DNA from: an uncultured Anaerolineales bacterium
Lineage (GTDB): Bacteria > Chloroflexota > Anaerolineae > Anaerolineales > Villigracilaceae
Direction of reading: 5' to 3'
Length of the DNA stretch: 64,000 nucleotides
Assembly (NCBI GenBank): GCA_937960595.1
Contig: CALGPL010000057.1
Span: 1 to 64,000 of the forward strand
Under the pieces are notes generated by a model that saw only the letters and a program-made list of their open reading frames with translations, was not told the origin of the DNA and did not search any database. The position numbers and the translations under genes are program-made. Every line of letters begins with the position of its first letter. Positions within the stretch are counted from its first letter, which is position 1. Positions 40,755 to 54,685 of this stretch are shown here, piece by piece.

Positions 40755-40784
40755 TGTGTGCCCGCGTTGGATAGAGAGGACACC

Positions 40785-41570
40785 ATGGCTCATGTAATTG
40801 CAATCAGTAACGAAAAAGGCGGCGTCGCCAAGACGACCACCACCCTTTCCCTGGGCGCAGCCCTGAGCGAACTGGGACGCCGCGTCCTGTTGATCGACCT
40901 CGACCCCCAGGCCAATCTGACCCTCGCCCTCGGTTTCGAACCCGGCAAAATCGAACGCACCAGCGGCGAGATTCTGCTCGACGCTGCGCCCCTGCTCGAC
41001 GCCCGCCTGCACACCAACTTCACCGGTCTGGACCTGATTCCCGCCAACCTGACCCTCGAACATGCCGAGCAAGTGCTTCCCGTCTACCTCAACTACACCT
41101 CCCGCCTGCGCAACGCTCTCGAAAGCGCCGAGCCGCTCCCCTACGATTTCGTCGTCATGGACTGTCCTCCCTCCCTGGGCGCCATCACGATCAACGCCCT
41201 GAGCGCCTCCAGTTTGCTCATCATTCCCACCCAGGCCGAGTACTTTTCTGCCTATGCTCTGCGCGACATGATGACCATCGTCCGCCAAGTGCGCGCCGAC
41301 GACAACCCCTCCCTGGCCTACCGCATCCTGGTCACGCTGCTCGATCAACGCAACCGCACCCATCGCAACATCCTCGAACAACTCGAACGCACCTTTGGCG
41401 AGGGCCTCTTCAAAACCACCATCGAAATCGACACCAAACTGCGCGAAAGCCCGATTTTGGGCCTCCCGATCACCCAGTACAAGCCCAACAGCCGGGGCGC
41501 CATGCAATACCGCAGCCTGGCTGAGGAGTTGATAGCCTATGTCGAACAAACGCCTGCAGAAACGGCTTGA
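40785..41570 (+). CDS. ParA/Soj-type ATPase embedded in the receptor operon
   Basis: A 261-residue Walker ATPase. The deviant Walker A motif is [11 protein letters not shown] (signature Lys11, catalytic-site Lys16), followed by [17 protein letters not shown] (Walker A' region) and [18 protein letters not shown] (Walker B). Such proteins form ATP sandwich dimers that bind DNA or other surfaces and segregate plasmids, chromosomes or protein complexes. No parB or parS is next to it. Its place between ten receptors and their likely kinase recalls PpfA and ParC, ParA homologues that position chemoreceptor arrays. ATG at 40785 is supported by GAGAGGA; the in-frame extension to 40758 lacks one. Its end overlaps the kinase start by 32 bp. 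Confidence 0.92.
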
Positions 41571-44500
41571 CCAGATTTTTACCGATATCAAGCAAGCCGA
41601 GGGCGGCCCTCCTCCGACCGAGAAGGCGCGCCCCCTTCCGCCGCGCCGCCCGGCCGCTCCGGCCGGCGCGCCCGCCCCTCAGCCTGCCGCTCCCGCCGAG
41701 CGCCCCGTCCGCCCTCCCCTTTCGCCGGCCACAAAACCGACCGGCAAATCGCCGCTCGAAACGGCCGTGATCGCAACCCCCACCAGCCTGGCGCTCCCCT
41801 TCCGCCTGGAAGCCGACAAGTGGAGCCTGCTCGAGGTCGTCAGCCCCCAGGAGCGCACCTGGACCCAGGATGAGCAGATGCTCGTCCGGCAGGTGGCCGA
41901 CCAACTCTCGCTCGCCCTGGAAAACGCCCGTTTGTTCCAGCAAACCCAGCAGCAGGCGCAGGAATTGGCCATCCTCAACGAGATGGGCCAGCAACTCTCC
42001 GCCCAACTGGACATCGAAGGCATCGTCTCAACCGTCCACAAATACACCGCTATCCTGATGCCCATTCACAGTTTCTTCATCGCCCTGTATGACCCGCTGT
42101 CCAAAACCATCACCTACCCCCTCTACGTCCAAGACGGGCAGAGACAGGCCGACACGTCTAACATGACCCGCCCTCTGCGCAACGGATTGACAGACTACCT
42201 GCTGATCGAACGCAAGCCGATTTTCATGCCCAACCGTGTCGAAGAACACATGCAAGCCTTGGGCATCGAGAAAATCGTCATCGGCGAAGGCCTCATGCCG
42301 GAATGCTGGATGGGCGTCCCCCTGATCATCGGCGACCAGGTGTTGGGCGCGCTGGGTCTGCAAAGCGTGACGACGCCCAATCTCTACACGCCGCATCATC
42401 TGGAACTGCTGACCTCCATTGCCCGCCAGACCTCCATCAGCATCCAGAACACGAAACTCTTCCGGGAAACGCAAACCCGCGCCGAGGAATTGACGGTCCT
42501 CAACGAAATGAGCCGCGCCTTGGCCGCCCTGACCGACGTCCAGCAAATTACCGAGACGATCTACGAATACACCTCCCGCCTCTTAGATACCACCAATTTC
42601 TATATTGCCCTCTATGACGAAAAAGCAGACGAAGTTGAATTTCGCATCTCAATCGAAAAGGGCGAGCGCCGTCCCTGGCGCAAACGCCACCGGGGAGGCG
42701 GTCTAACCGAACACATCATCCGCACCGGTCAACCGCTGCTCATCGAAGAAAACGTCGGCGCCAAAGTGCGCGAACTGGGCATCGAAATGATCGGCGACGA
42801 GGCCCTCTCCTGGCTGGGGGTGCCGATGATGATCGGGTCGAAAGTCATTGGCGTGATCGGCATCCAAAGTTACACAACCCCGCGCATGTTCAACGTCACC
42901 TCGCTGAACCTGATGATGTCGATTGCCGGTCAGGCCGCCATCACCCTCGAGAACGCCCGTCTGTTCGAAGAGACCCGTAAACGCGCCGCCGCGCTCGAGG
43001 CGTTGAACGAAGTCGGTCGCGCCACCACCTCCCTGCTCAACCTGGAGGAAGTGCTCACCATTCTGGTCGATCTGGTTAAGGCCCGCTTTGGATATTACTT
43101 CGTGGGCATCTCCCTCTACGAAAACGATCGCCTGCTGTTCAAAGTCGGCAGCACCATTGGCAACACCAACACGCGTTTCGGGCGCACCGATGTCGATCTG
43201 ACCGAAGGCCCCAGCCTGATCGGCGAAGCGGCCAAAACCAATCAGCCCGTGATGGTAAATGACGTCTCCCAAGATCCGCGTTATTTGGCCACCACCGAAT
43301 TGCCAGACACAAAATCCGAGATAGCCATTCCCATTACGGTCAAGGGCCGCGTCATTGGCGTCCTCGACGTCCAGAGCGACCAGGTCAACGCCTATGATCA
43401 GGAAAGCCTCTCCATTCTGCAATCGATCGCCAGTCAGGCCGGCGCGGCGATCGACAATGCCCGCCTGTTCCAGCAATCTCAGCGCCAGGCCGAGGAACTG
43501 GCCATCCTGAACGAAATGGGCCGCGAACTGACCGCCACCCTCGAGCCGGCCGCCATCGCCGAGACCCTCTACCACCAGACCTCGCGGCTGATGGATACCT
43601 CGACCTTCTTCATTGCCCTCTACGACCAAGAAACCAACTCTCTTTCGTTCCCGCTCACAATTGACAATAACAAACGATTCGAGACCGCGCCTCGGCCGCT
43701 TGCCGGCGGGTTTACCGACTACATCATCAAGACCCGCCAACCGGTCTTCGTGCCGGAAGACGTGGATGGGGCGATGGAAAAACTCGGCATCCAAAAGATC
43801 GTCGTCGGCAAGAACCTCCCCGCTCAGTGCTGGATCGGCGTGCCGATGCTGATCGGCGAACGCGTGATCGGCGTCATCGCCGCCCAGAGCGAGGAGAGGC
43901 CGCGCGCCTACACCCCCCACGACCTGGAACTGTTGACCGCCATTGCCAGCCAGGCCGCCATCGCCTTCGAAAATGCCCGCCTGTTCCGCAACACCCAATT
44001 GCGTGCCGAGGAACTGGCCACCCTGAATGACCTCGCCCGCGCCCTGGCCGCCCAACTCAACCTGGATCAAATCCTGGAAGAAGTTTATCGCGGCGTCAGC
44101 CGCCTGCTCGACGCCACCAATTTCTACGTCGCCATCTACGATACCGAGAACGAAGAATTGGTCTTTCCCCTCAACGTCTCCGAATCGGTTATGGATCGAG
44201 AAATTCTGCGTCTGCCCGCCGATCAGGGCATCACCGGTTACGTCGTCCGTACCCGCCAAGGTCTCCTGATTCAGGGCAACGTAACCGAATGGCTGCAAGA
44301 ACACAACATCGAATCGGTCGGCGAACCAACCTCCTGCTGGCTGGGCGTGCCCATGCTGTTGGGCGAACAAGCCCTGGGCGTGCTGGCCGTCCAAAGTTAC
44401 ACCAACCCGCAAGCCTTTGGCCGGCGCGACCAAGACCTCCTGAGCGCCGTCGCCAACCAGGCCGCCATCGCCATCCAGAACGCCCGCCTCTTCGAAGAAA

Positions 44501-47067
44501 CCCGCCGGCGGGCCGAAATCGAGCGCATCACAAGCGAAATCTCCTCCATCTTCGTCAGCATCGATCCCCTGGAGACCACCCGCGGCATCGACGAGGCCAT
44601 CGAAAAACTGGGGACCTTCGCCGGCATCGACCGCGCCTATGTCTTCCTGCTCAACCCCGACGGCAAGACCGTCAGCAACACCAACGAATGGTGCGCCGCG
44701 GGCATCCCTCCGATCGCCAAAAACATGCAAAATCTCCCCAGGGAGACCTTCCCCTACCTGCTGAAAACCCTCGAGCGTTCGGAAATTTTCTATTTCTCCC
44801 GCCTGGACAACCTGCCTCCCGAAGCCGAGGTGGAACGCAAACAATTCGAGAGAGGAGGAGTCCAATCCGTCATCTGTATCCCCTTGCTCAGCCGAGGACA
44901 ACTGATCGGACTCCTGGGCCTCGACGCCATCAAAAAAGAACGCCGTTGGAACAAACAAGAAATCAACCTGCTCCGCCTGGTGGCCGAGACGATTGTCACC
45001 GCCCTGGGCCGCCAGGAAGCCGCCAGCGCCATTCAGCGCCAAAACGAGTACCTGGCCACCTCGGCTGAAATCGGCCGCCTGGTCACCTCGACCCTCGACA
45101 TGGAAACGCTCCTGAAGCGCACCGTCAACCTGATTCTGGAGCGCTTCGACTTCTACCACGCCGCCATCTTCATCATCGAAGAGACCGGTTTCAACGCCAT
45201 CCTTTCGGCCGCCACCGGCAAGGCCGGCGAAGAGATGCTGCGCCGCGGCCATTCCCTGCCGGTCGGCTCCAAATCCATCGTAGGCACAGTCACCTCCTCG
45301 GGGCAGCCGATGATCGTCAATGACACCGCCGCCGATCCCACTCACCGCCCCAACCCGCTTCTGCCCGACACCCGCGCCGAAGCCGCCATTCCCCTCCGCA
45401 TCGGCGACCGCATCATCGGCGCCATCGACATCCAATCCACCACCCCCAACGCCTTCACCGGCGGCGACATTGCCGTCCTGCAAACCCTGGCCGACCAGGT
45501 GGCCGTAGCCATCGACAACGCCCGCTCCTACGAACTGGCCCAGCAAGCCATCCGCGAAATGCGCGAACTGGATCGCCTCAAGAGCCAGTTCCTGGCAAAC
45601 ATGAGCCACGAACTGCGCACGCCGCTCAACTCGATCATCGGCTTCTCGCGCGTTATCCTCAAAGGCATCGACGGCCCCGTCACCGAATTACAGGAACAGG
45701 ACCTCAACGCCATCTACAATTCCGGTCAACACCTCCTGCGTCTGATCAACGACATCCTCGACCTCTCCAAGATCGAAGCCGGCAAGATGGAACTCGCCTT
45801 CGACGATGTCAACATCGCCGACACCATCCACAGCGTCCTGCCGACCGTTTCGGGCCTCATCAAGGACAAACCGATCACCCTCCAGAAAGAGATTGCCGAC
45901 AACCTGCCCGTCGTCCGCGCCGATTCGGTGCGCATCCGCCAGGTGCTGATCAACCTGCTCTCGAACGCGGCCAAGTTCACCGAAAAAGGCTCGATCACCG
46001 TCTCCGCCCAGGTCGAGACCAACGAAATGGGCCAGCCCGAAATCATGGTCAAGGTCATCGACACCGGCCCGGGCATCGCTCCCGAAGACCAGAACAAACT
46101 CTTCCAGCCCTTCTCGCAGGTGGACGCCTCGCCCACCCGCAAGACGGGCGGGACCGGCCTTGGCCTGTCCATCTCGCGCCGCCTGGTCGAACTGCACGGC
46201 GGGCGGATCGGCGTCCAAAGTGAAATTGGGAAGGGCAGCATCTTCTACTTCACTTTGCCCATCCCGCGCCTCCGCGAGGCCGGCAAAACAGTAGACGAAA
46301 GCCGACGCGGCGACCGAATCATTCTGGCGATCGACGACGACAGCCAGGTGATCGCCCTTTATGAAAGATACCTGCAGCCGCAGGGCTTCCAAGTGATTGC
46401 TCTGACCGATCCGCTCCAGGCCAAAGAACGCATCCGCCAACTCAGGCCCTTCGCCGTCACCCTCGACATTATGATGCCCGGCAAAGACGGCTGGACGCTG
46501 CTCAACGAACTCAAGACCGACCCCGAAACGCGCGACATTCCGGTCATCATCTGCAGCATCCTGGAAGAGGAGGAAAAAGGCTTCAGCCTCGGCGCCGCCG
46601 ACTACCTGGTCAAACCTATCCTAGAAGACGACCTCCTGAACGCCCTCAACCGCCTGAACGGCGACGGAAGCATCAAAGAGGTCCTGATCATCGACGACGA
46701 CCCCAAGGATCTGCGGCTGATCGCCAAAATCCTCGAGGAGCGCAGCCGTTACAAACCCATCCTGGCCCAGGGCGGCACGCAGGGATGGCAAAGGCTGTCT
46801 TCGGAGCCTCTACCCCACGCGGTCATCCTCGACCTCTTCATGCCCGAAATGGACGGTTTTGCCATCCTCGAAAAGATGCGTACCACGCCAAGCCTGACCG
46901 ACATCCCCGTTGTCGTGGTCAGCGGCGGCGACTTGACGAATATCCAGCAGAAACAATTGGAGGACTTCGGACAAAAACTGCTCCGAAAAGGCACGCTCAA
47001 CGAGAACGAACTGCTCACCCTGCTGGATCGCGCCCTCAAACGTCTCGGGCCGGTACAGAAAGGCTAA
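41539..47067 (+). CDS. Giant soluble hybrid histidine kinase: half GAF, seven GAFs, HisKA, HATPase, two receivers
   Basis: 1842 residues, no membrane segment. Order: short helix (1-22), Pro/Ala-rich linker (24-75), the C-terminal half of a GAF (about 80-132, [13 protein letters not shown] to [11 protein letters not shown]), GAF1 135-310, GAF2 312-482, GAF3 485-650, GAF4 652-822, GAF5 824-990, GAF6 992-1165, GAF7 1166-1338. HisKA has His1357 in [17 protein letters not shown]; the ATPase domain has [20 protein letters not shown] and [10 protein letters not shown]. Receiver 1 carries Asp1643 ([11 protein letters not shown]), receiver 2 Asp1765 ([11 protein letters not shown]). Many GAFs share SWLGVPM or CWIGVPM loops. 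The N-terminal half GAF matches the half GAF inside R2-R10, while the receptors end in the missing first half. No HPt domain is visible. GAGGAG lies ten bases before ATG, within parA. Confidence 0.93.
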
Positions 47068-47074
47068 AACTTCT

Positions 47075-48751
47075 ATGTCCTTTGTCATCAAATGTCTCGA
47101 TTGCGGGCACACCGCCCCCTATTTCCCCACCTCCGTCAACTGCCCGCGTTGCAGCAGTCAGTGGCGTCAGGCGGAATACGATTACGATACCATTGCCAAG
47201 AGTCTCCCGCTGCAATTGCCCAGCCGTCCTTTCGACTTGTGGCGTTACCGAGAATTGCTGCCGGTTCGCAACCCCAACCCGACCATCCGCCTGGGCGAAG
47301 GCGGCACGCCGCTCATCCCGGCCGTCAACCTGGGGATGATGCTGGGCTGCCCCAACCTGTTCATCAAAGATGAGCGCCAGGGGCCGACCGCTTCGTTCAA
47401 AGACCGCCAGGCAGCCGTCACCATTGCGGCGCTGAAAGAGGCCGGCATCACCGAAATGGTCGCCGCCTCGACCGGCAACGTGGCCATTTCCTACTCGGCC
47501 TACGCGGCCCGGGCGGGCATCAAACTGTGGGCCTTCGTCACCAGCCTGGTGCCGGCGGTGAAAATGCGCGAGATCGCCCTCTACGGCAGTCAGGTCATCA
47601 AAGTAACCGGCTCCTACGACCAGGCCAAGCAGGTCGCCGCCGAGTTCGCCCGTCAGCGCGGCCTGTACCTCGACATGGGCGCCCGCACCATCACCTCGAT
47701 CGAGGCCATGAAGACCATCGCCTTCGAAATTGCCGAACAGGTCACCGCCGCCCTCGGGCCGGTCTCCGGCAACAACGGCAAACCGCATCCCATCTGGCGG
47801 GCGCCCGATTGGTACATCCAATCCGTCAGCGGTGGGATGGGCCCTCTCGGCCTGGCCAAAGGCTTTGCCGAACTCGAGCGCATGAATTTCCTCGACCGCA
47901 TTCCGGCCATTGCCGCCATCCAGTCGGAGGGCTGCTCCCCGATGGTACAGGCCTGGAAGGAGGGGAAAGACGTGGCCACTCCGGTCACCTCGCCGCGCAC
48001 CCACATCGAAACGCTGGCAACCGGCGACCCGGGGCGAACGTACACCCTGTTGCGCAAATGGGTGACCGAAACACACGGAGTCTTCGAAAGCGTCACCGAC
48101 GAGGAAGCCTTCCGGGCCATGCATGTCCTGGCAAAAATGGAGGGGATCTCCGCCGAACCGGCAGCCGCAGTCGCATTTGCCGGCCTGTTCAAACTCGTGC
48201 GCGCCGGGGTCGTCAAACCCACCGACGTTGTGGTGGTCAACTGCACCGGCCACACCATGCCCGCCGAACCGTTCGTCCTGGGAGACAACTGGGCCCGCAA
48301 CGTTGTCCTGCCCTCGCGCGTGATGGAAGAGACGCCCCAGGAGGGCCTGCTGGCCGCCCTCAGCCGCGTCGCCCCCGATCGCTTCCCCAACGTTGCCATT
48401 GTGGATGACAGCCAGGAAGCCCGCCGACTGATCCGCCGCATTCTGCAATCGCAAGGCGATTTCAAGATCTTCGAAGCCGAGAGCGGCAAAGAAGCCCTCG
48501 GCCTGATCGAGCGCGAAATACCCGATCTGATCATCCTCGATCTGATGATGCCGGAAATGGACGGGTTCGCCGTCCTCGACGCCCTGCGGGCCAAGCCGGA
48601 GACGGCCAACATCCCCGTCATCGTGGCCACCGCCAAAGAATTGACCGCCGAAGAAAAGAACCGCCTCAAAGGACAGATCCAGGCGCTGATGCAAAAAGGC
48701 GATTTCCTGAGCGACGAATTCCTCGAAGAAGTTCGTTCCCTGATCAAGTAA
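47075..48751 (+). CDS. Threonine synthase fused to a response-regulator receiver
   Basis: 558 residues in two parts. Residues 1-425 are a PLP-dependent threonine synthase-type enzyme (O-phosphohomoserine to threonine): N-terminal zinc ribbon (CLDCGHTAPYF to NCPRC), EGGTPLIPA, PLP lysine Lys109 in TASFKDRQA, VAASTGNVAISYSAYAARAG, and the SVSGGMGPLGLAKGF phosphate loop. Residues about 440-558 are a receiver: VDDSQ pocket (Asp444, Asp445), phosphoacceptor Asp489 in [18 protein letters not shown], and a late LMQKGDF lysine like that of the kinase's second receiver. A PLP enzyme with a receiver is highly unusual. It begins 7 bp after the kinase gene. True threonine synthase activity is probable but not proven; a related beta-replacement activity is possible. 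Confidence 0.9.
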   Translation: MSFVIKCLDCGHTAPYFPTSVNCPRCSSQWRQAEYDYDTIAKSLPLQLPSRPFDLWRYRELLPVRNPNPTIRLGEGGTPLIPAVNLGMMLGCPNLFIKDERQGPTASFKDRQAAVTIAALKEAGITEMVAASTGNVAISYSAYAARAGIKLWAFVTSLVPAVKMREIALYGSQVIKVTGSYDQAKQVAAEFARQRGLYLDMGARTITSIEAMKTIAFEIAEQVTAALGPVSGNNGKPHPIWRAPDWYIQSVSGGMGPLGLAKGFAELERMNFLDRIPAIAAIQSEGCSPMVQAWKEGKDVATPVTSPRTHIETLATGDPGRTYTLLRKWVTETHGVFESVTDEEAFRAMHVLAKMEGISAEPAAAVAFAGLFKLVRAGVVKPTDVVVVNCTGHTMPAEPFVLGDNWARNVVLPSRVMEETPQEGLLAALSRVAPDRFPNVAIVDDSQEARRLIRRILQSQGDFKIFEAESGKEALGLIEREIPDLIILDLMMPEMDGFAVLDALRAKPETANIPVIVATAKELTAEEKNRLKGQIQALMQKGDFLSDEFLEEVRSLIK

Positions 48752-48772
48752 GCCGTCGACCATGAGGCAGGA

Positions 48773-49726
48773 ATGAGAAAGGCGATAGGCCGCGCCAAGG
48801 GAATTGGGTCCGCCTTGAGTGCGGCCGTCTTCCTTGGTTTGGCGCCCATCTTTGGCAAGCAAGCCATCCAACTGGGTTTTTCTCCCCTCCTCGTGGTCGC
48901 GGTGCGAACCAGCCTGGCCGCCGCCCTCTTGCTTCTGCTGATGGTCCTGTTTCGGCGGCCTTTTCTCTACATCTACCCGGCCGGCCTGCTGGGCTGCGCC
49001 CTGGCCGGCGCCATCAACGGACTCGGCTCGATCCTGTATTACCTGGCGCTGGGCCGCTTGACCGCCAGCGTCGGCCAATTGCTCTATTCCCTCTATCCCA
49101 TCTTTCTGGCGGTTTGGCTGGCGCTCGATTTCCAACCTCCCAGCCGCATCACCCGCCTGCGCATGGCGATTGCCATGCTCGGCGTTCTCCTCCTCACCTA
49201 CACGAAACCCGCCGAAATCGACTGGATCGGCGTGGCGTTGATGCTCGGCGCCTCGGCCATGTACGCCCTGCATCTTCCCATCAACCAGCGCGTCCTCTAC
49301 GACATCCCCGCCCCCACCGTGACCCTCTACACGCTCCTGGCAATGAGCCTGATCGTCGTCCCGGCCTACCTCATCTTCGACCGCAGTTTCCCGCCAACCG
49401 ACCCCTCCTGGACCCCTCTCCTGGGATTGACGCTGGTCACCTTTTTCTCCCGCCTGACCCTCTTTCTGGGCGTCAAACATCTGGGCGGCATGCAGACCGC
49501 TTTGCTGGGCCTGAGCGAACTGCTGATCACGATCGTGGCCAGTCACTTATGGTTACACGAAAGTCTCCGCCCCATCCAATGGAGCGGCGCCGTCCTCCTT
49601 ATCGTCAGTGTTGCCTTGATCGGCCTGGAGAAGATCAGCCCCGAACCGCGCCGCAAGAGCGGCTGGCTAAAGTGGCTGCGGCCTCCGGGCATTCCCCCCG
49701 ATCTTACCTGGGGAGCAGGAGAATAA
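48773..49726 (+). CDS. EamA/DMT-family transporter
   Basis: A 317-residue integral membrane protein with ten predicted segments in two EamA repeats. The first repeat runs GSALSAAVFLGLAPIFGKQA to GLGSILYYLALGRL and ASVGQLLYSLYPIFLAVW; the second from IDWIGVALMLGASAMYALHL to TALLGLSELLITIVASHLWL, with the family's closing LHESLRPIQWSGAVLLIVSV. Members export amino acids, nucleosides and other metabolites. It follows the threonine-synthase fusion by 21 bp, so export of an amino acid is conceivable, but the substrate is unknown. It ends two bases from the stop of the convergent OmpR-type regulator. Confidence 0.9.
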   Translation: MRKAIGRAKGIGSALSAAVFLGLAPIFGKQAIQLGFSPLLVVAVRTSLAAALLLLLMVLFRRPFLYIYPAGLLGCALAGAINGLGSILYYLALGRLTASVGQLLYSLYPIFLAVWLALDFQPPSRITRLRMAIAMLGVLLLTYTKPAEIDWIGVALMLGASAMYALHLPINQRVLYDIPAPTVTLYTLLAMSLIVVPAYLIFDRSFPPTDPSWTPLLGLTLVTFFSRLTLFLGVKHLGGMQTALLGLSELLITIVASHLWLHESLRPIQWSGAVLLIVSVALIGLEKISPEPRRKSGWLKWLRPPGIPPDLTWGAGE

Positions 49727-49728
49727 TC

Positions 49729-50487
49729 TCAAGGCCGGGGGGAAGTGGGGGGCGGCTTGGCCGCCTCGAACACGTAGCCGGTACCCCGCACGCTGACAAT
49801 CCGTTCTGCCAATGCCGGCACCGCTTCCAGTTTCTGCCGCAGCCGGCTGACCAGCGGGCGCAAGATCTCAGGGGCCTCCTGCTGGGAGGTGGCATATCCC
49901 TGCACGAGCAAGACCAGTTCGCGATGGGTGAAAACCTTGCCGATATTCTCGACAAAGATTTTGAGCAAGCGCCCCTCGGCGGGCGTCAGGAAAATCGTCG
50001 TCTTGCCCGAAGAGAGGGCGCGCCGCCCGAAATCGATGACCGTTCCGTCGTCGAGATGCGCTATCGCCTCCTCCTCGGCCGCGCCGGGCAGTTCGGCGCG
50101 GGAGGGCAGGCGGGCCGCCCGGCGCGCCAACCCGCGCGCCACGCTTTCCAAAATCTGGGTAGGCGAGGCCGGCTTGAGCAAGTAATCATGCACCCGATTG
50201 CGCAGAGCATCGATCGCCGACTCCAGTGAGCCGTGCGCGGTCAGGAGGATGATCTCGATATCGGGAGCCATCCGCCCAACCACCTTGATAACATCCAGGC
50301 CGCTCATGCCCGGCATGCGCAAATCGAGCACGATCAGATCGACCGTGTTGTGGCGGACGAAATCCACCGCCGCTTCGCCGTTGGCCACCGAGGCGACGCG
50401 ATACCCCTCCAGGCGCAGGATGTCCGACAGCGTCTGGCGTTCGATCGGTTCATCATCAACAACAAGGATACTTGCCTTCTGCATCAT
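49729..50487 (-). CDS. OmpR-family response regulator
   Basis: 252 residues. Receiver 1-120: VVDDE pocket, phosphoacceptor Asp55 in LIVLDLRMPGMSGLDV, LTAHGS switch, YLLKPAS lysine. A linker of about 40 residues leads to a winged-helix DNA-binding domain (about 160-240) with LTPAEGRLLKIFVENIGKVF, LVSRLRQKLEAVP as recognition helix region and VRGTGYVF as the wing. It is the last gene of the minus-strand operon, so it is the probable transcription output of the two kinases before it. Its ATG overlaps their stop codon by 4 bp (ATGA). Targets unknown. Confidence 0.93.
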   Translation of the reverse strand: MMQKASILVVDDEPIERQTLSDILRLEGYRVASVANGEAAVDFVRHNTVDLIVLDLRMPGMSGLDVIKVVGRMAPDIEIILLTAHGSLESAIDALRNRVHDYLLKPASPTQILESVARGLARRAARLPSRAELPGAAEEEAIAHLDDGTVIDFGRRALSSGKTTIFLTPAEGRLLKIFVENIGKVFTHRELVLLVQGYATSQQEAPEILRPLVSRLRQKLEAVPALAERIVSVRGTGYVFEAAKPPPTSPRP

Positions 50488-52073
50488 CCTTCATCCTTGA
50501 CAGGTAAAGTCACCCGGAAACAAGCGCCCGGCCCGCGGTCAGGGACGAGATCGAGGTTGCCGCCGTGCGCCGAGATGATCCCGTAACTGACCGGCAATCC
50601 CAGGCCGGTGCCTCCCTCCTTGGTGCTGACGAACGGCTCGAAGATTCTGCTGCGATCCTCGGGCGGTATCCCCGGCCCGGAATCCTGGAACATAATCTCG
50701 ACCGTGTCTTTGACGGGGCGGGCAATGACGCGCAGTTCGCCGCCCTCCGGCATGGCGTCGTAAGCATTCAGGATCAGGTTGATGAACACTTGCTGCAACT
50801 GACTGCTGACCGCCAGGATGCGCGGCAATTTGGACGAAAACCCCGTTGTGACCCGAATGCCGCGGGCGGTCAACTGGGGCGAGAGCAAATCGATGACATG
50901 GCGCAGCAAATCGGCCACGTCCACGCGCTGCGGTTCCACCCCGCCCGGACGATAGAAATCGAGCATGCGCTGGACGGTGCTCATCAGGCGATCGAGTTCC
51001 GTCTTGGCCAGGTTGAGGTACTCCTGCTGCTTTTCGGGAGGCATGTCCTTGCGCGTGGCCAGGTGCAGGCAATTTTGCACCGCCTGGAGCGGATTGTTGA
51101 TCTCGTGGGCAATCGAGGCGGTCAGACGGCCCGCCGTGGCCATTTTCTCGGCCCGAATCAGCGCCTGCTGCGAATCTTCGACCCGCTGAACATAGTCGCG
51201 CAGTTCGGCATACAGGCGGGCATTTTCCATAGCGATCGCCGCCTGCCGCGAGAGGAGCAGAAACATCTCCCAGTCAACTTCGCGGAAGGGATCGTTGCCC
51301 GTCTGGCGGGCGGCGTACATCACGCCGCGGCGGTTGGCGTACATCACAGGGGCAGCCATGATCGAAACCAGGCCTCGTTCGGCCAGATACGCCTGCATCT
51401 CCGCATCCCCGGGGCCTGTTACGTTGACCCAGGTCGCTGCGCCCGAAGTGTTCGCCCGCAACAGGACGCCCCCGCGCCGCTCCTCGTCATCCGCAAAGAC
51501 CTCGCCCTGGACGGCCAGCAAGCGCAGAGTCTGTTCTTCCTCCACGTACTCATAGAAACCGGCGTGTTCGCAACGCAACTGGCCGCAGACGGCGCTCAGA
51601 ATCAGGCCGAGCAAACGATCGGGACGCGTTTCGGCCAGCAGGGCTTCGGTGATATCGAACAGCGGCCGCAGGGCCTGAATACGGGCGGCTTCCCGTTTCC
51701 GCTGATTGTCCTGCAGCGCCTGCTGCACCGCCTGCACCAGTTCCTCCCCCGCCTCGAACGGCTTCAAAATCAGCCCATCCACCCCCTGCCGCAAAGCCTG
51801 AACCGCCATCTCCAGCGTCCCAAAACCGGTCATGACCAGGATGGCGACCTCCGGTTGCTGCTGGCGAACCCGTGCAATTACTTCGAAGCCGTTGATGTCT
51901 GGCATGCGGATGTCTACCAACAGCAAATCAATGTGGTTATGCTCGGCGTATTCCAGCGCCCGAAAGGGATCGGTGAACGAGACGACCGAGAAGTCGGCCC
52001 GCTTCAACAGGCGCTCACACAGCCGCGTAATCCCCGGCTCGTCATCGATCACCAAAATCGTGGGGGCTGTCAT
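50484..52073 (-). CDS. Hybrid sensor kinase: receiver, GAF, HisKA, HATPase
   Basis: 529 residues, soluble. The receiver comes first (1-120; VIDDEPG, Asp54 in LLLVDIRMPDINGFEV, LILKPFE). A GAF (about 150-295, with GVMYAARQTGNDPFREVDWE) follows, a coil with YVQRVEDSQQALI, then HisKA with His323 in ASIAHEINNPLQAVQN, and the ATPase domain (LILNAYDAMPEGG, DSGPGIPPEDRS, GGTGLGLPVSYGI). The AHEINNPLQ box and the ATPase style are those of NtrB/ZraS-like kinases. An N-terminal receiver means it can itself be a phosphorelay target. Overlaps both neighbours by 4 bp. Confidence 0.92.
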   Translation of the reverse strand: MTAPTILVIDDEPGITRLCERLLKRADFSVVSFTDPFRALEYAEHNHIDLLLVDIRMPDINGFEVIARVRQQQPEVAILVMTGFGTLEMAVQALRQGVDGLILKPFEAGEELVQAVQQALQDNQRKREAARIQALRPLFDITEALLAETRPDRLLGLILSAVCGQLRCEHAGFYEYVEEEQTLRLLAVQGEVFADDEERRGGVLLRANTSGAATWVNVTGPGDAEMQAYLAERGLVSIMAAPVMYANRRGVMYAARQTGNDPFREVDWEMFLLLSRQAAIAMENARLYAELRDYVQRVEDSQQALIRAEKMATAGRLTASIAHEINNPLQAVQNCLHLATRKDMPPEKQQEYLNLAKTELDRLMSTVQRMLDFYRPGGVEPQRVDVADLLRHVIDLLSPQLTARGIRVTTGFSSKLPRILAVSSQLQQVFINLILNAYDAMPEGGELRVIARPVKDTVEIMFQDSGPGIPPEDRSRIFEPFVSTKEGGTGLGLPVSYGIISAHGGNLDLVPDRGPGACFRVTLPVKDEG

Positions 52074-54685
52074 TTTTCCGCCTCAACCGGCAGCCAAACA
52101 ATGAAAGTGGATCCCTCGCCCTCGCGGCTCTCGACCTCGATAAAACCGCCATGGTCGGTGACGATGCCATAGGAGACCGAGAGACCCAGCCCTGTGCCAC
52201 CCTGGCGCGAGCGGGTGGTGAAAAAGGGTTCGAAAATGCGGTTCATATGCTCGGCCGGAATCCCAACGCCGGTATCGCGAATGCGGATCACCAGCCAGTC
52301 GCTGCCCTCGCGCCGGCGGCGCTGGGTCTCGACCGTCAGGCTGCCGCCGGTCGGCATGGCATGCAGGGCATTGTGGAACAGATTCAACAGAACCTGCTTG
52401 ATTTGATTGCGGTCCACCGAAATCCAGGGCAGACGCTCGCCAAGTTGGATGCGGACTTCCACGCCGCTGGTGTGGAGCAGATGGTTCATCAGCGCCAGGA
52501 CGTCTGAGACAATCTCGTTCAGGTCGGCTCGCACCCGCACGCTCTCGGTCTGACGGGAGAAATCGAGCAGGCGGCGGATGACGCTGCGCGCCCGATGCGC
52601 CTCGCGCAAGACCAGTTCGAGGTCTGGGCGGGTTGGATCCTCCTGAGGCAGATCGTTCAAGACCAGTTCGGCGAAACCGGCGATCGTGGTCAGCGGATTG
52701 TTGAGTTCGTGGGCAATGCCGGCCGCCATCTCGCCGACAGCCGCCAGTTTGGCGGCCTGGATCAGGCGGGTCTCTGCCACCCGCTGGGCAGTGATGCGCT
52801 CCTGCAATTCCTCGCGCGCCGCCTGCAATTGATGGACGGTGCTCTGCAATTTCTGATACTGCCCGGCATTGGCAATCACGCTGGACAGGATACCGGCCAG
52901 CGATTCGAGAACCAGCAGATCGTTGGGAGAAAAATTGTTTTTCTGGCGGCTTTCTACATCGATAATCCCCAGCGTACGATCGCCTTCCCGCAAGGCCACG
53001 CACATCTCGGAACCGGCCTCCCACCCCGGGATGGGAAGATAAACGGGATCGAGAGTCACATCGTTGACCAGCATGCTCTCCCCGGTGACGAACACCCGCT
53101 GGGTGATCCCGCCGCGGGCGGCCGAATCCAAGTCCTGCAGGCCGCGCTGGACGATGGCAGCCGCGCTTCCGCCGATTCCGGTCACCCGGAAGAGATTCTG
53201 CTCATCGGCCAGGGCGACCACCGAGAGTTCGTAGGCAAAATTGCGCGCCATCAACTCGGCGGCAATCTGGGCGATCTTCTCGACATCCGTCAGCCCCATC
53301 ACCTGCTGGACCACGTCATGGATCAGTTCCAGGTTGCGGGCGCGCCCCTCGGCCTCCTGGCGCAGACGGCTGTTCTCGACCAAACCGGCCAGATAACTGG
53401 CCACCACCCCCAGCAGGTGTTCATCGAAGACCTTGAAAGCGCCCGGCCGCGGACTCTCCAGCCCCAACAGACCGATCACCTGCCGGCGATATTTGAGCGG
53501 CACGAGCAGAACCGAACGCGTCCCCTCATAGAACGGGACATAATCTGGATTGGCTGCCAGGTCGTCCAGGCGGTAGGTATCTCCGCGGGTGACGAATTGC
53601 AGAACCGAGGTGCCTTCGTTCGGGCGGGTGTGCGAAACAACGCGGCCGTCTTGGTCAAAGTAATGATGGAGAGTATTCCCGTCTGTGGAAAACAGGATCA
53701 GGCTGATCCACTCGGAGCCGAGGGCGCGCCGCAAGAGACCAAAGACACGCTGGGCAATCTGATCCAGATCGAGGGCCGAGGAAACCGTCAGCGCAAAATC
53801 GTTCAGCAGCGCCAGGCGATGCAGGTGATCCGTCAGGCTGGCGAAGGTGATGCTCGCCTCCACCAGCGGGGCGGCGCGGGTGGTCAGACGGTCGAGGGTT
53901 TCGCGTTCCTCCGGCGTAAAAGCCTGCTCGCGCCAGACGGCAACCATGCCGATCACCCGCTGGCCGAGAGTCAGAGGCATACAGGCCCAGGCATGCGTGG
54001 TCGGCTTGAGGCCGGTGCGCGGCACCATGGCCCAGTCGCCCTGGCCTGCCGTCACCATGACGCTGCTGCGCTTCTGGGCAATGGAACGCAGCAGCGGATT
54101 GGCATCCAGAGAAAGTTGACTTCCCTGCCAATCGGGGCATCCCGCTTGCACCCGCACCTCGAGAAATTCGCCCGAACGAATGGCCAACCATCCCCCCTGA
54201 CAAGGAATTTCGTGCAACACGCCGCGCAAGACTCGGTCGAGCGCCTGCGGCAGATCGTAGGGAACGCCGCTCATCCAGTCGGGCAGGTTCTCCCCGTCGG
54301 CCGCGGCCGCAGAGACGGGCAAGCCGCCGCCCATGGCAATGATCCGCCAGACTTTTTGGGAGCGCTCGGTCAGGCCGTCGGCCCCGACCACAATGATTCG
54401 GTGGGTCAAACGCTCGGGGAACAGGTACAGCCGGCTGCAGGTCAGGCCGAGCGAGTCGGGCAGAGCGCGCGAGCGGTGATGGCGTCCCGCCAGTGCCCCG
54501 GCCAGCCAACTCGCCACCGCAGGCTGCTCCAGATAGCGCATCAACGCGGCCCGCCTGACGCGGGGCAATCGATAGGCTGCCAAGATGAACCACTCGGCCG
54601 CCCCGCGTTCCAGCCAGACCGCCCAGCCCGCCCCCGTCAGCAGGCTGGTTTCCTTTAATTGCCGCTCCAATAAATCGGTTGACAT
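52070..54685 (-). CDS. Sensor histidine kinase with three or four GAF-like domains
   Basis: 871 residues, no membrane segment or receiver. The first 110 residues (LKETSLLTGAGWAVWLERGA) are a degenerate GAF-like region; GAFs follow at about 125-275 (WACMPLTLGQRVIGMVAVWR), 290-450 (SVLLVPLKYRRQVIGLLGLE) and 460-625 (CVALREGDRTLGIIDVESRQ). A coil (VHQLQAAREELQERI) leads to HisKA with His659 in GIAHELNNPLTTIAGFAEL and the ATPase domain ([39 protein letters not shown]). First gene of the minus-strand operon. AAGGA is close to the ATG and the transcript leader is very short. Confidence 0.92.
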   Translation of the reverse strand: MSTDLLERQLKETSLLTGAGWAVWLERGAAEWFILAAYRLPRVRRAALMRYLEQPAVASWLAGALAGRHHRSRALPDSLGLTCSRLYLFPERLTHRIIVVGADGLTERSQKVWRIIAMGGGLPVSAAAADGENLPDWMSGVPYDLPQALDRVLRGVLHEIPCQGGWLAIRSGEFLEVRVQAGCPDWQGSQLSLDANPLLRSIAQKRSSVMVTAGQGDWAMVPRTGLKPTTHAWACMPLTLGQRVIGMVAVWREQAFTPEERETLDRLTTRAAPLVEASITFASLTDHLHRLALLNDFALTVSSALDLDQIAQRVFGLLRRALGSEWISLILFSTDGNTLHHYFDQDGRVVSHTRPNEGTSVLQFVTRGDTYRLDDLAANPDYVPFYEGTRSVLLVPLKYRRQVIGLLGLESPRPGAFKVFDEHLLGVVASYLAGLVENSRLRQEAEGRARNLELIHDVVQQVMGLTDVEKIAQIAAELMARNFAYELSVVALADEQNLFRVTGIGGSAAAIVQRGLQDLDSAARGGITQRVFVTGESMLVNDVTLDPVYLPIPGWEAGSEMCVALREGDRTLGIIDVESRQKNNFSPNDLLVLESLAGILSSVIANAGQYQKLQSTVHQLQAAREELQERITAQRVAETRLIQAAKLAAVGEMAAGIAHELNNPLTTIAGFAELVLNDLPQEDPTRPDLELVLREAHRARSVIRRLLDFSRQTESVRVRADLNEIVSDVLALMNHLLHTSGVEVRIQLGERLPWISVDRNQIKQVLLNLFHNALHAMPTGGSLTVETQRRRREGSDWLVIRIRDTGVGIPAEHMNRIFEPFFTTRSRQGGTGLGLSVSYGIVTDHGGFIEVESREGEGSTFIVWLPVEAEK

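Follow-up and report, generated by a model that had tools for sequence, protein, structure and literature searches.

Contig 57 of the draft genome (2.47 Mb, 86.6% complete) of an uncultured bacterium of the Anaerolineales (Chloroflexota) supplied the 64,000-nucleotide stretch analysed here, which we call the window. It carries a gene in which a threonine-synthase-like enzyme of the pyridoxal-phosphate (PLP) type is joined to a two-component receiver domain. The frame runs uninterrupted on the forward strand from an ATG at 47075 to a stop at 48751 and encodes 558 amino acids. An initial annotation had placed a PLP enzyme, with its lysine and cysteine ribbon, and then a receiver with phosphoacceptor Asp489 in this one open frame, and we found all of these parts there. 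The features of the gene are as follows.

47075..48751, forward strand: fusion of a threonine-synthase-like PLP enzyme and a receiver, 558 amino acids, conserved in 63 aligned fused proteins
47084..47176, forward strand: CxxC...CxxC ribbon, residues 4-34 (C7, C10, C23, C26), its four cysteines invariant in the alignment
47285..48247, forward strand: PALP fold-type II PLP domain, residues 71-391 (Pfam PALP, E 1.5e-65; AlphaFold2 model)
47399..47401, forward strand: codon of Lys109, the predicted PLP Schiff-base lysine in SFKDR, aligned with Lys61 of Thermus thermophilus threonine synthase (TtTS) and lysine in 63/63
47672..47716, forward strand: residues 200-214, DMGARTITSIEAMKT, in place of the threonine-synthase motif NSxNPxRxEGQKT
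47828..47845, forward strand: residues 252-257, SGGMGP, where the PLP-phosphate loop is altered (threonine synthases have GNAG)
48335..48382, forward strand: conserved helix linking the enzyme to the receiver, residues 421-436, PQEGLLAALSRV
48383..48748, forward strand: receiver (REC) domain, residues 437-558 (Pfam Response_reg at 440-536, E 8.3e-21)
48539..48541, forward strand: codon of Asp489, the predicted phosphoacceptor, aligned with the receiver phosphoacceptor position

On the opposite strand an 836-amino-acid open reading frame (47036-49546) has the appearance of a shadow frame in GC-rich sequence.

The fusion and its conservation

The fusion is real and conserved, and is neither a chance event nor an artefact of assembly. 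When 61 order-level genomes were searched with the enzyme half as query, nearly every genome of the family contained a match of 70-94% identity in an open frame of ~555-677 amino acids, and the receiver was present in every one of the translated loci. Phylum-wide, 42 of 400 genomes had a match to the fused family; these also covered other classes, as well as a genus whose genomes are 6 Mb in size. The fused proteins (n=63) span several classes of the Chloroflexota at identities down to 46-47%, some of the homologues carry two receivers (~710-725 amino acids), and the fused-class matches listed from the order-level and phylum-wide searches contained no internal stops. A frameshift or an assembly join between the halves, which the initial annotation had named as grounds for abandoning the idea together with absence of the fusion from close relatives, is rejected by the 63 uninterrupted homologues, and the proposed search of other genomes found the fusion in nearly all close relatives as well as in other Chloroflexota classes. 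Genomes that matched by peptide patterns, which are biased to close relatives, were metagenome-assembled genomes of Anaerolineales and related Chloroflexota. Samples of ~250 Desulfobacterota-side and ~250 Acidobacteriota-side genomes gave no match at E 1e-65. Two Bacillota-side matches (36-37% identity) were no closer than ordinary ThrC, and their frames of ~430 amino acids are too short for a receiver; plasmids yielded only unfused archaeal and bacterial ThrC-like matches at ~31-34%.

Both active sites are preserved throughout. We aligned the 63 fused proteins with four receiver-less cyanobacterial relatives, 15 other threonine-synthase-like proteins and five solved threonine synthases. In the enzyme half K109, D110, R111 and the STGN loop (S132-T133-G134-N135) are invariant in all 63 fused sequences, which thus have the PLP lysine and STGN expected of a threonine synthase. 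In the receiver half D445, D489 and K541 are equally invariant, position 519 is T or S and position 444 is D or E, so a single chain combines the full receiver set of phosphoacceptor aspartate, acidic pair, Thr/Ser and lysine with intact catalytic residues, as in a response regulator with enzymatic output. C7, C10, C23, C26, Lys109 and Asp489 were also invariant among 53 aligned homologues, and the N-terminal ribbon is likely to bind metal. The identities of the two halves co-vary (r 0.95; means of 63% for the enzyme and 57% for the receiver) and, judged from the alignment, both are under long-term constraint. Within the linker helix G424 and A428 are invariant, and its mean column identity is 0.71 versus 0.51 for residues 398-420.

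An AlphaFold2 model built from 53 sequences had a mean predicted local distance difference test score (pLDDT) of 85 and a predicted template modelling score of 0.70, with poor prediction at residues 407-422 and 543-558. The best match of the modelled enzyme part in the PDB was Arabidopsis threonine synthase (Z 44.7, root-mean-square deviation 2.2, 381 residues aligned), followed by other threonine synthases and then by the cysteate synthase CapA2 (9k3c; Z 41.5). A common fold, as modelled here, does not fix the substrate.

Relation of the enzyme half to threonine synthase

The initial annotation called the enzyme threonine synthase, and this label is doubtful for the fused protein. Its scores fall below the cut-offs of the curated thrC family TIGR00260 (152-153 bits against 167.1) and of PRK08197 (246.7 against 303). 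The same genome has a separate ThrC (G000:C98) that scores 178 and lies above the TIGR00260 cut-off; the suggestion to look for another thrC was in this way borne out, and since C98 passes TIGR00260 the fused protein is unlikely to be the housekeeping ThrC. Homoserine kinase (TIGR00191) had only a weak partial match in this 87%-complete genome.

A maximum-likelihood tree was built from 87 enzyme domains. All the fused proteins and the four cyanobacterial receiver-less proteins group in a single clade (100/100) with a stem length of 2.63 changes per site, and it stands apart from every other threonine-synthase-like group in the tree; the long branches make the deep order unsure and leave this clade firm. 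The receiver-less relatives (L202-L205), at ~50% identity, occur in four cyanobacterial-phylum genomes that have other ThrC-like genes, and their gene neighbourhoods are uninformative. Their position inside the clade is weakly supported and is compatible with either receiver loss or later transfer.

The substrate side of the active site also differs. Residues 154-165 of TtTS (NSVNPHRLEGQK) correspond to DxGx(R/K)(S/T)(I/V)xxxE(S/A)MKT in nearly all of the fused proteins, and none of the 63 aligned keeps the equivalent of P158, R160 or Q164; the motif NSxN(P)xRxEGQKT is missing. Position 88 (TtTS numbering) is V or A and not T, and the PLP-phosphate loop GNAG has become SGG(M/L/I). Several of the replaced residues are presumably substrate-phosphate contacts in the T. 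thermophilus substrate-analogue complex (1v7c). The fused protein thus resembles the ThrC proteins of T. thermophilus, Mycobacterium tuberculosis and Arabidopsis in its fold-type II PLP domain, SFKDR lysine, STGN loop and N-terminal extension (Z 38-45) and differs from ThrC, as defined by TIGR00260 and PRK08197, in score, in both motifs, in the attached receiver and in clade.

It is unlikely that the protein is a true threonine synthase that converts phosphohomoserine to threonine under the control of Asp489 phosphorylation. Among solved structures, threonine synthases come closest in sequence and one is also the top fold match, two of the unfused cyanobacterial members lie narrowly above the thrC cut-off, and the EamA transporter family, a member of which is encoded directly downstream, includes threonine/homoserine exporters. 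Set against this are the two missed cut-offs, the replacement of motif and PLP loop in 63/63, the separate ThrC in the genome and the coexistence of the cyanobacterial sister proteins with other ThrC-like genes. The distinct clade, the lost motif, the changed PLP loop, the sub-cut-off scores and the separate thrC argue together for a changed function: the PLP domain appears to descend from the threonine-synthase family and to be now a separate enzyme of altered specificity. More tentatively, it may represent an undescribed threonine-synthase-derived PLP family in the Chloroflexota that acts on a new substrate as the direct output of a giant multi-sensor kinase, its product being an amino-acid derivative for export or signalling. 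An enzyme family that is routinely auto-named threonine synthase may have another function.

Cysteate synthase (TIGR03844; CapA2) is likewise a threonine-synthase-like PLP enzyme, and its N-terminal region aligns with that of the fused protein; here too the score is far below the cut-off (108.6 bits against 324.9), and the family model has no receiver.

The adjoining kinase and a proposed model of control

The fused gene has the following neighbours.

40758..41570, forward strand: ParA/MinD-like ATPase, upstream of the kinase; found in 26 of the 50 loci whose upstream sequence extends over ~6 kb or more
41539..47067, forward strand: giant soluble sensor kinase with seven GAF domains, HisKA, HATPase_c and two receivers; predicted phosphodonor
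48773..49726, forward strand: transporter of the EamA family, immediately 3' of the fused gene in 33 of 57 loci
49729..50487, reverse strand: OmpR-type response regulator, convergent, a conserved neighbour
50484..52073, reverse strand: REC-GAF histidine kinase, a conserved neighbour
52070..54685, reverse strand: GAF histidine kinase, a conserved neighbour

The kinase stop codon at 47067 lies 7 bp before the ATG of the fused gene, as the initial annotation had it, and the adjacency is general: the gene immediately upstream encodes an orthologous histidine-kinase domain in 58 of 63 fused loci. This arrangement strongly supports the prediction of a kinase-receiver-enzyme unit, and the combination of intact sites with so constant a kinase neighbour makes two-component control the natural reading. 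Five loci (L135, L139, L055, L060 and L213) have no detected upstream kinase, two of them with only ~2 kb of upstream sequence. Of these, L135 and L139 are second fused copies in their own genomes, with intact receiver residues and no kinase detected within 7 kb upstream.

We consider it probable that the protein works as a response regulator with a neofunctionalised threonine-synthase-like PLP enzyme as its output, gated by phosphorylation of Asp489. Control of the enzyme through Asp489 would best account for two intact active sites that have stayed together over deep time, joined by a conserved linker helix and adjoined by a dedicated kinase. In such a system the multi-GAF histidine kinase would sense a signal and pass phosphate to Asp489, either directly or by way of its own receivers. 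A change in the conformation or dimerisation of the receiver would then be relayed through the linker helix to the PLP domain, whose activity would be raised or lowered. The enzyme, with its changed substrate pocket, would run beside the cell's own ThrC, and the EamA transporter encoded alongside may carry its substrate or product. In this manner a sensor probably exerts direct control, upward or downward, over a metabolic enzyme.

Several observations weigh against this proposal. The kinase carries two receivers of its own, and pLDDT falls below 50 at the receiver end and at residues 407-422 of the model. The enzyme does not require the receiver, because four cyanobacterial members of the clade are without one, and two of those exceed the thrC cut-off by a small margin (170 and 175 bits). 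C98, the ThrC of this genome that passes TIGR00260, likewise deviates at TtTS positions 88, 155 and 160, so loss of NSxNPxRxEGQKT is a weak functional discriminator, and motifs are no reliable guide to specificity.

Signal flow in the other direction, with the PLP domain acting as an amino-acid-binding sensor that modulates receiver or kinase phosphorylation and not as an enzymatic output, strikes us as quite unlikely. The gene does lie in a signalling island rich in ligand-sensing GAF/Cache proteins, its pairing with the kinase is nearly constant and its substrate pocket has diverged; against this, a binding domain would not need the catalytic lysine, the STGN loop and the Asp-Arg of SFKDR that are kept in 63/63, and the receiver-less relatives persist as stand-alone proteins. 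Even less probable is a receiver that serves mainly for docking, dimerisation or as a phosphate sink and leaves enzyme activity unaltered. Such a role is favoured by the two receivers of some homologues together with the extra stand-alone receiver that follows, as in phosphorelays, and by the ParA-like ATPase, which hints at spatial organisation of the complex; the conserved helix between the domains and the joint conservation of both active sites speak against it.

Most response regulators have DNA binding or second messengers as their output. If the proposed gating by Asp489 is correct, a kinase could act through the receiver of a PLP amino-acid enzyme and adjust metabolic flux in seconds, with no need for transcription. 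The initial annotation considered such control very unusual. It is uncommon; it is not unprecedented, because bacteria have repeatedly been found to carry receivers on standard metabolic enzymes, the archaeal cases being narrowly distributed (PMC5847659). The fused protein shares with those enzymatic-output regulators the attachment of a receiver to an enzyme, and differs from them in having a PLP enzyme, a C-terminal receiver and a distribution over several Chloroflexota classes. In the open-access library that was searched we found no earlier description of a threonine synthase-receiver fusion, and a prior mention elsewhere is possible. A PLP-enzyme output conserved across several classes, an unusually broad distribution, looks new, and the retention of the arrangement next to a dedicated kinase in different classes of the same phylum points to a maintained system.

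Variation in the gene neighbourhood

The main gene order comprises GAF sensors without a kinase domain, the ParA-like ATPase, the giant GAF kinase with receivers, the fused gene and EamA, and continues on the other strand with the OmpR regulator and two histidine kinases. In a distant arrangement the kinase tail usually has no detected receiver, which makes the fused receiver a candidate direct target, and a stand-alone receiver gene lies 3' of the fused gene (18 of 57 loci). Six loci (L143, L144, L145, L154, L158 and L206) have a receiver-less threonine-synthase-like gene 3' of the stand-alone receiver; these genes share 54-72% identity with the copy at L143, whose PRK08197 score of 580 bits is above the cut-off, so that there are two related PLP enzymes per cluster. 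In the distant lineages L207, L208, L211 and L056, GNAT acetyltransferase genes occur near the fused gene, and a functional link is suggestive only.

Positions 18111-41570 of the window encode about ten GAF proteins, several with membrane sensor modules (HAMP, dCache or MASE11) and with no detected kinase or other output domain. Two stand-alone receivers precede this run, and the ParA-like ATPase and giant kinase follow it; the whole looks like a large multi-input sensory island.
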